The position numbers and the translations under genes were made by a program. Positions 39,797 to 42,129 of a stretch of DNA of 64,000 nt are shown piece by piece. The notes under the pieces were generated by a model. That model did no database searches. It had not been told where the DNA came from and saw nothing but the letters and a program-made list of their open reading frames with translations. Positions within the stretch are counted from its first letter, which is position 1. Each line of letters begins with the position of its first letter. This stretch comes from Arthrobacter sp. UM1 (GTDB taxonomy: Bacteria; Actinomycetota; Actinomycetes; Actinomycetales; Micrococcaceae), in contig NZ_JACWAB010000001.1 in assembly GCF_020483305.1 (NCBI RefSeq), positions 248,001 through 312,000 of the forward strand, read 5' to 3'.

Positions 39797-41074
39797 ATGC
39801 TTCAGCTCCCTCTCTGGTTCGAGATCGGCTCCTTCGCCGTTCTCGGACTTATCCTCCTCGCAGACCTCCTCCTCGTGGTGAAGAGGCCGCACGAGCCCTC
39901 GATGAAGGAGGCCGGCCTCTGGGTCGGCTTCTACGTCGCCCTCGCGCTCGTCTTCGCCGGCCTCATGTACGTCTTCGCGGGACACGAGCACGGGACCCAG
40001 TTCATCGCAGGCTGGATCACCGAGTACAGCCTCAGCGTGGACAACCTGTTCGTCTTCATCGTCATCATGGCGCGCTTCTCGGTGCCGCGGAAGTACCAGC
40101 AGGAAGTGCTCATGGCGGGCATCATCATCGCCTTGGTGCTCCGCGGGGTCTTCATCCTCGCGGGAGCGGCCATCATCGAGCAGTGGTCCTGGGTCTTCTA
40201 CATCTTCGGGGCGTTCCTCCTCTGGACCGCCTACAAGCAGGCCACGGATGACGGCGAGGACGAGGCGGGCGAGAACCCGCTCATCGCCCGCCTGCGCAAG
40301 GTGCTCCCCATGAGCGAGCAGTTCGACGGAGGAAAGCTCCGCACCCGGGTGAACGGCAAGACGGTGTTCACACCCATGCTCGTGGTGTTCGTGACGATCG
40401 GCCTGACCGACCTCATGTTCGCCTTCGACTCGATCCCGGCCATCTTCGGCCTGACGCAGTCGGCGTTCATCGTCTTCACGGCCAACCTGTTCGCGCTCAT
40501 GGGCCTCCGCCAGCTCTACTTCCTGCTCGGCGGGCTCATGGAGCGCCTCATCTACCTCAAGCACGGACTCTCGCTCATCCTCGCCTTCATCGGCGTGAAG
40601 CTCATCCTTCACGCGATGCATGAGAACGAGCTGCCGTTCGTCAACGGCGGCCACCCGATCGAGTGGGCCCCCGAGATCGGCACCTTCGTGTCCCTCGCCG
40701 TGATCGTCGGCATCATCGCCGTCGCGACCGTCGCGTCGCTGCTCAGCCCCCAGGGCAAGGTCGCCCAGGCCAGCGCGAATCTCCGCAAGGCGTTCGAGGA
40801 CTACGAGCGGGCTCACCGCGAGTACGCGGCAGAGCAGGAGGTGGAGCCCACAGGCGGCACGGAGAAGCCAGAGCTGCGCCAGGCCGAGGGTCAGCTTGTC
40901 GGCGCCTACGAGAACGCGGTGGCCGTCAACGATCGGACCTCCAAGGCGGACGTCGAGTTCCCTGAGACGGCGGAGGACCAGCCCTCCCTGTCCGAGACGG
41001 TGCGAGGACTCAAAGACCGCGGTGTGACCAAGGAGGACGCTTCCAAGAAAACCGCGGAGGACCGCGCACGCTGA
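39797..41074 (+). CDS. TerC-family integral membrane protein (probable manganese exporter)
   Basis: A 425-residue membrane protein with about 9 helices up to residue 315 and a soluble, charged tail of about 105 residues. The family-defining acidic motifs are ITEYSLSVDNLFVFIVIM and LTDLMFAFDSIPAIFG; the membrane aspartates are thought to bind metal. TerC proteins of the Alx/MeeF type export Mn2+ and help metallation of exported enzymes. The putative Mn2+ riboswitch in the leader supports this role. ATG 39797 is preceded by GGAAGG. The abi gene follows, 101 nt downstream. Confidence 0.92.
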   Translation: MLQLPLWFEIGSFAVLGLILLADLLLVVKRPHEPSMKEAGLWVGFYVALALVFAGLMYVFAGHEHGTQFIAGWITEYSLSVDNLFVFIVIMARFSVPRKYQQEVLMAGIIIALVLRGVFILAGAAIIEQWSWVFYIFGAFLLWTAYKQATDDGEDEAGENPLIARLRKVLPMSEQFDGGKLRTRVNGKTVFTPMLVVFVTIGLTDLMFAFDSIPAIFGLTQSAFIVFTANLFALMGLRQLYFLLGGLMERLIYLKHGLSLILAFIGVKLILHAMHENELPFVNGGHPIEWAPEIGTFVSLAVIVGIIAVATVASLLSPQGKVAQASANLRKAFEDYERAHREYAAEQEVEPTGGTEKPELRQAEGQLVGAYENAVAVNDRTSKADVEFPETAEDQPSLSETVRGLKDRGVTKEDASKKTAEDRAR

Positions 41075-41087
41075 GCACGGCGCAACG

Positions 41088-41102
41088 GATGATATAATCA
41101 TC
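41088..41102 (+). promoter_or_regulatory. Operator-like dyad over a perfect -10 box before the abi gene
   Basis: GATGAT-ATA-ATCATC (41088-41102) is a perfect 6-3-6 dyad that contains TATAAT (41093-41098). An outer pair AACGG (41084-41088)/CCGTT (41107-41111) extends the symmetry. No good -35 box exists, so the promoter may need an activator or be weak. Transcription would start near 41105. Confidence 0.55.
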
Positions 41103-41111
41103 TCAACCGTT

Positions 41112-41153
41112 CAGCCCGCCCCAGCCCCTGCTGGGAGCGGGCTGGATCTTTCT
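41112..41153 (+). terminator. Strong hairpin with T-rich tail between terC and abi (terminator, attenuator or small RNA)
   Basis: CAGCCCGC (41112-41119) pairs with GCGGGCTG (41137-41144), and CCCAGC (41120-41125) with GCTGGG (41130-41135), leaving a CCCT loop and one bulged A: a 14-bp stem. ATCTTTCTT follows. It ends the TerC message, but it also lies after the abi -10 box, so the abi transcript must pass it. Confidence 0.65.
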
Positions 41154-41175
41154 TCGGTCAAGGAATCGGACAAGG

Positions 41176-42129
41176 ATGAGGATGCCGAGGACACTCAAAC
41201 CCCCAACGTCAGCAGCCGACCAGATCGAAGTCCTGATCAGGCGTGGTATGGCCGTTGAGAGGGCTCAGGCGGAGCAGTGGCTTTCGAACGTGAGCTACTA
41301 CCGCATGTCGGGCTATTGGCACCCTGCCCGTCTCGAAGACTCAGGCAATGACCGCGGCGACCAGTTCAAGCCAGGGACGTGTTTCGCTGATGCGGCTGCG
41401 CTCTACGAAGCAGACCGAAAACTGCGAACCCTCCTCCATGACGGGTTGGAGCGAATTGAAATCGCGTTGCGGACACGTATCGGGGAAGCGCTGACTCTCG
41501 AGGGCCCGCTCACTTATACGCGACCTGAATTCTTTCGTCCTACTTTCGACCACGCGGAGTGGATGTCGGTGGCCGAAAAACGAATTTCACGCTCCCAGCG
41601 CTGGAACGAGTCGATTCGCCACCACGACCGAGAATATGGGGGACAGTACCCTTTCTGGGTCCTGGCCGAGGTGCTTGACTTCGCGGATGTCTCCAAATTG
41701 TTCGCCGGCTTGAGAGCTCCGGTGCAGCGATCTGTTGCTGAAGGACTCGGCATCGCCGTCGACAGGAGTCTCCTTTCAGAGCGACAGTTCAAGAAGGCTT
41801 CGAAGAACTCTCCGCTGGCACGGTGGTGTGAACAGCTGACCGTGGTCCGCAATCTCTGTGCGCATCACGGGAGACTGTGGAACAAATCGTTTGTTCCGGC
41901 ACCGACCCCGGTCCTCAGGGTTCTGCCTGGCTTCCACTCTCTTCCTTCCGGGCAGAACGAGCGCGTATTCGGCGTGCTCGTCGTGATGAGCCAGCTCCTC
42001 CGGGTCATTTCTCCCGGAACAACGTGGCCCAACAAGGCTGCACGCCTCGTCAACACTGACTTCGTCCCGAATCCGCCGGTGACACCGGAAGGGCTCGGAA
42101 TCACCGAAGGATGGAACGGAGAATTCTAA
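41176..42129 (+). CDS. Abi_2 / AbiF-type abortive-infection protein (HEPN-like)
   Basis: A 317-residue protein of the Abi_2 (AbiD/AbiF) family. Diagnostic segments are WLSNVSYYRMSGYWHP (residues about 35-50), LRTLLHDGLERIEIALRTRI (about 76-95), QYPFWVLAEVLDFADVSKLF, and the HEPN-like RNLCAHHGRLWN, where Arg225-x4-His230 would form the RNase site. In the family these proteins give phage resistance, presumably by RNA cleavage. The gene is visibly lower in GC than its neighbours, which suggests recent transfer. Starts: ATG 41176 (AAGGAA 10 nt upstream) or ATG 41182 (AAGG 6 nt upstream). No separate antitoxin gene is adjacent. Confidence 0.88.
   Translation: MRMPRTLKPPTSAADQIEVLIRRGMAVERAQAEQWLSNVSYYRMSGYWHPARLEDSGNDRGDQFKPGTCFADAAALYEADRKLRTLLHDGLERIEIALRTRIGEALTLEGPLTYTRPEFFRPTFDHAEWMSVAEKRISRSQRWNESIRHHDREYGGQYPFWVLAEVLDFADVSKLFAGLRAPVQRSVAEGLGIAVDRSLLSERQFKKASKNSPLARWCEQLTVVRNLCAHHGRLWNKSFVPAPTPVLRVLPGFHSLPSGQNERVFGVLVVMSQLLRVISPGTTWPNKAARLVNTDFVPNPPVTPEGLGITEGWNGEF

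Follow-up and report, generated by a model that had tools for sequence, protein, structure and literature searches.

In type III toxin-antitoxin systems such as ToxIN an RNA is the antidote of an RNase, and phage-borne mimics of toxI are known, as are RNA anti-CRISPRs. The systems considered here are built around AbiF. In C. difficile, AbiF is toxic, and the RNA encoded upstream of it, RCd22, is an antitoxin that binds it directly and so neutralises it, both in cis and in trans (PMC12373285). The order at that locus is promoter, RNA, terminator and then abiF, and RCd22, about 98-132 nt long, contains two RF03085 motifs, its terminator being separate (PMC12373285). A second case is PbAbiF with its RNA AbiFr (structure 8VZ6; Zilberzwige-Tal 2025, as outlined in PMC12373285 and in the review PMC12737573), where the RNA again lies directly upstream of the gene. 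RNAs of Rfam family RF03085 (abiF RNA) occupy the same position, as a hairpin and U-tract ahead of the same kind of gene.

The locus described here lies in a 64,000-nucleotide stretch of the genome of Arthrobacter sp. UM1, referred to below as the window, and its features are listed in Table 1. The longest open reading frame of the gene is 41176-42129, and the ATG at 41182 is better supported as the start by homologues (MPRPLK...). The initial annotation had recognised an Abi_2 gene with an RNLCAH motif, which proved correct: the Abi_2 domain is identified by Pfam PF07751 (E 1.8e-46, 159 bits, cut-off 25.6), PADLOC assigns the protein to AbiD (E 1.5e-57), and the four key residues of the motif do not vary among the homologues. 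The AlphaFold2 model is confident (pLDDT 94.2, pTM 0.90) and matches one solved structure, 8vz6_A, an RNA-bound PbAbiF dimer (fold E 2.8e-14, TM 0.77/0.81), which is also matched by sequence (E 6e-29). This entry is described as PbAbiF with AbiFr (PMC12737573). The protein is therefore of AbiF type, as had been proposed, and shares the fold and the HEPN motif with PbAbiF. By homology, it is predicted to be an RNA-cutting toxin acting in phage defence. No protein antitoxin was seen beside the gene, again in line with the initial annotation; its neighbours are a TerC-family gene upstream and a convergent ABM-domain gene downstream.

Table 1. Features of the AbiF-type locus (window coordinates) and of related phage RNAs (coordinates in the individual phage stretches)
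Feature	Position	Strand	Basis or remark
TerC-family membrane protein gene	39797..41074	+	Upstream neighbour, outside the system; Pfam TerC 8.3e-51
6-3-6 dyad covering the -10 box	41088..41102	.	Not conserved, probably chance
Extended -10 element TGA-TATAAT	41090..41098	+	Predicted start 41105
AbiF-type leader RNA, family A	41105..41155	+	Predicted antitoxin and attenuator; CM R1 65 bits
Outer stem, 5' arm	41109..41119	+	Leader alignment
Inner variable stem-loop	41120..41135	+	Covaries; 4-13 bp long in relatives
Single bulged base 3' of inner stem	41136..41136	+	Folds and alignment column 46
Outer stem, 3' arm	41137..41147	+	Leader alignment
T-rich tail, weak terminator-like	41148..41155	+	CUYUWU conserved in relatives
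Abi_2/AbiF HEPN toxin gene (predicted)	41182..42129	+	Abi_2 domain, homologues, fold
HEPN catalytic motif R-x4-H (RNLCAH)	41848..41865	+	R223, N224, A227, H228 invariant in 38 sequences
Mycobacteriophage spacer RNAs (family A or RF03085)	L167:133-180, L201:333-380, L196:342-378, L206:261-297		
Rhodococcus phage family A RNA directly before tRNA-Trp	L168:1660-1691, L202:328-363, L203:318-355, L204:318-355		

The gene is preceded by a hairpin with a T-rich tail. This had been described as a 14-bp hairpin, and the structure stands, but the stem is slightly longer, at 16 bp (11 outer and 5 inner) with one bulged A. Its minimum free energy is -37.9, compared to -24.1 in shuffled sequences (z -4.0). 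The arrangement resembles that of C. difficile, except that a single hairpin of about 50 nt appears to serve as both RNA and terminator. The leader differs from AbiFr, as far as the latter is described in the sources cited above, in both sequence and architecture, which here is made up of a single outer stem, a single bulged base and a single variable inner stem. It also lacks the AGCCUCUC...CGAUGCUCAAAU core of RF03085, whose covariance model gave no match to it at E<5, and RF03085 was rejected as its family. Despite this, the window leader is the same kind of element as the Rfam abiF RNA.

The upstream regions of homologues carry the same arrangement: a -10 box with AAYCGUUCAGCCYGC directly behind it, then a variable stem-loop followed by a single bulged base, and finally GYGGGCUGGAU and the T-rich tail. 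We call this family A; it has a conserved 5' AAYCG start and a near-invariant stem, GUUCAGCCCGC/GYGGGCUGGAU. The leader is kept ahead of homologues that are only 39-59% identical, in Cutibacterium, Acidipropionibacterium, Actinomyces, Corynebacterium, Rothia, Curtobacterium, Rhodococcus and Mycolicibacterium. Every intact close homologue inspected has it in front bar one (L124), which has a different hairpin, so that a leader hairpin of some kind was seen with all clade-A toxins. Among 27 distinct copies, 98.6% of cells are paired and 42 cells are double-changed, where shuffles give 9.1; the corresponding values for 57 aligned copies are 97.4% and 99 against 24.7, in an alignment that was made to the model and is thus biased in its favour. 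The outer stem is nearly invariant, apart from 11 sequences in which A-U is replaced by G-C, while the sequence of the inner stem varies freely and its pairing is kept. In one relative (L123:1381-1466) the inner hairpin of the family A leader owes its greater size to tandem repeats, each about 20 nt long (GCCTTCCTTAGTGAA). The window leader is thus a real RNA family with conserved structure. Its conservation at other Abi_2 loci, on which the initial reading depended, is seen in a positive covariance search, the 57 copies with their covariation, and a fixed spacing to the -10 box.

Other actinobacterial Abi_2 genes have leaders of family B (AUCAGCCCG...), C (GACCGGUUCCGC...CAGGGCCGGUC) or D (RF03085), or others. 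When the RNA families are placed on a tree of 54 proteins, 6 label changes are needed, compared to 24.1 after shuffling, and the window protein falls within the supported A clade. The RNA families therefore track the protein tree: they are associated with the toxin and co-evolve with it. The Arthrobacter genome has a second Abi_2 gene outside the window (L136, G000:C9:337838-338876, minus strand) with a true RF03085 abiF leader. The only RF03085 match in this genome (G000:C9:338841-338876) lies directly before that gene, so that one genome holds two AbiF systems with different RNAs. A hairpin leader is found at the same place in most of the Proteobacteria and Bacteroidota relatives inspected, including those from Prevotella (L055, L064); a scan of 20 loci against Rfam listed none of these leaders at its gathering score.

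The RNA also occurs on its own. A scan of 395 genomes of the window's family with covariance model R1 gave 38 copies, spread over 34 of the genomes; in 396 genomes from across the phylum, the copy in the window itself was the only match. Behind the RNA there is an intact Abi_2 gene in 13 of the 38 cases, a broken one in 6, and no such gene in the other 19. Comparison of genomes G146 and G004 shows a clean loss of the toxin gene with the promoter and RNA retained. That the RNA outlives its toxin gene is expected of an antitoxin. Five related solitary RNAs (L151, L154, L158, L165, L170) are 91-98% identical, also in those cases in which the flanks are unrelated (32-40%), which indicates gene exchange around a kept RNA; family A RNA may thus mark a site of cassette exchange.

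We propose that the locus encodes a type III-like system, in which the leader acts on a HEPN RNase both as its antitoxin and as its attenuator, and give this a probability of about 85%. The promoter (TATAAT at 41093-41098) would produce a hairpin RNA of about 50 nt from around 41105. Most transcripts would end at the T-rich tail, and read-through would yield an mRNA for the HEPN RNase of AbiF type. Because the U-tract of this tail is poor, it may terminate only weakly, or processing may take the place of termination. The hairpin RNA would bind the toxin dimer and hold it inactive, and on phage infection the short-lived RNA would be lost and the RNase freed. Binding, neutralisation, RNase activity and defence are all expected by homology with C. 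difficile AbiF/RCd22 and PbAbiF/AbiFr. An alternative is that the leader acts only in cis, controlling read-through into abi_2 without binding the protein. A hairpin and T-rich tail directly ahead of the gene would fit, and there is a precedent in the control of lactococcal AbiD1 by its 5' UTR, as described in PMC12373285. However, a terminator needs no invariant sequence and the outer stem is nearly invariant, the RNA family follows the protein clade, and the RNAs persist without the gene and are found in phage tRNA arrays (below). We consider this alternative unlikely.

The perfect TATAAT reported by the initial annotation is part of an extended -10 element and is the only TATAAT or ATTATA within the 64 kb. 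A TAnnnT sequence lies 6-7 nt ahead of the RNA start in all 25 toxin-linked leaders (13 of them TGn-extended) and in 13 of 15 solitary bacterial or prophage-like copies, compared to about 2% of random positions. This bears on the suggestion that the hairpin is the terminator of the TerC gene and nothing more, which might be thought from its start 31 nt past the TerC stop codon. The same RNA is found behind many different and unrelated genes elsewhere, and has its own promoter. In a congener (G001), a GC-rich inverted repeat of its own stands behind the TerC gene, and a different, RF03085-like RNA comes after that. The terminator reading therefore fails, and we give it very little weight. The congener has no Abi_2 gene behind TerC; its solitary RNA (L290:1283-1318, minus strand) has a TATAAT in front and scores 33 bits against RF03085, below the gathering score of 37 bits. 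Comparison of the two TerC sites suggests turnover of AbiF systems there. A reading of the dyad at the -10 box as a repressor operator, perhaps for the toxin complex, with the leader incidental, is most improbable: the perfect 6-3-6 dyad (GATGATATAATCATC) is present as first reported, but is one of 48 in the window and is absent from 15 of 15 homologous promoters compared.

Leader RNAs are also carried by phages. Pattern scans of IMG/VR found RNAs of families A, C and D in viral contigs; family B had no viral match. For family A the reversed pattern, used as a control, gave 0 matches compared to 8 for the true pattern, of which two (L192, L194) are probably chance, being without the family's flanking features. 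Within 50 nt of a tRNA on the same strand lie 6 of 16 A, 5 of 20 C and 19 of 53 D viral copies, where random positions in the same loci give 0.13, 0.06 and 1.23 respectively; some contigs are near-identical, and the copies are thus not all independent. Fourteen D copies are above the Rfam gathering score. An Abi_2 gene follows only 2 (A), 8 (C) and 2 (D) viral copies. When the leader was used as a short query against plasmids and phages, all matches were weak and unrelated.

All three families occur inside tRNA arrays without Abi_2, in Mycobacterium, Rhodococcus and uncultured phages. In cluster-L mycobacteriophages, the spacer between tRNA-Gly and tRNA-Lys is occupied by a family A RNA in GuuelaD and MS810 and by RF03085 in DyoEdafos. 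Douge has RF03085 immediately before tRNA-Lys. No Abi_2 gene was found in the four mycobacteriophage stretches listed in Table 1. Tourach, Archie and Crossroads have another hairpin in this spacer, and in Lolly9 the slot is empty and the following tRNA differs. This third hairpin (CACCCTGTTCT..GGCAGGGTCTTT; L195, L197-L200) had no match in 395 genomes of the class, and in IMG/VR matched the same phages only. Family A RNA is present in all four Rhodococcus phage sequences inspected (Takoda, RGL3, WC1 and Partridge), and the Takoda segment before tRNA-Trp is matched by 43 Rhodococcus phage records. Three Rhodococcus and Mycolicibacterium plasmids have Abi_2 genes with family A leaders bearing GUUCGGCC/GGGCCGGAU. 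The G-C stem variant of the plasmid Abi loci is also found in RGL3, WC1 and Partridge, while GuuelaD and Takoda keep A-U. The phage RNAs have no -10 box (0 of 6) and fill the tRNA spacer almost exactly, so that they may be released by tRNA processing. The phage records inspected carry no annotation on these spacers.

This distribution in phages is established by computation. To account for it we propose, and think it rather probable, that phages carry stand-alone AbiF antitoxin RNAs among their tRNA genes, freed by tRNA processing, as decoys that silence host AbiF. At least three leader families would have been copied, including that of the window, with different RNAs held in one slot by cluster-L mycobacteriophages. 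As in ToxIN and the RNA anti-CRISPRs, an RNA antidote of an RNase has solitary copies in phages; here the toxin is a HEPN dimer rather than having the ToxN fold, and the phage copies lie within tRNA arrays. The idea of phage-borne RNA decoys against AbiF is apparently unreported in the part of the literature searched, and earlier reports may exist outside it. The sole phage mention found there is a note of an abiF RNA in cyanophage S-CREM1, to which it assigns no role. For lactococcal phage sk1, a region of its DNA has been cited as giving phage 712 protection from AbiF. The spacer between the two tRNAs of sk1 is structured (L298:27576-27644, z -3.4); the phage has no RF03085, the hairpin in the spacer has no recognisable match to an Abi_2 leader, and no link to the protection was found.

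The window locus thus belongs to the AbiF toxin family and carries a new RNA variant, and Actinobacteria gain a defined pair of AbiF and RNA that is invisible to Rfam. The minimal RNA, of about 50 nt, offers a means of studying how the ancestor of Cas13 was restrained. Through the RNAs that stand alone, in bacteria and within phage tRNA arrays, the idea of an antitoxin RNA as counter-defence can be tested directly in well-studied laboratory phages, in Mycobacterium smegmatis mc2 155 and Rhodococcus erythropolis RIA 643. If the proposal is true, the phage hairpins between tRNA genes would be an RNA counter-weapon against AbiF.
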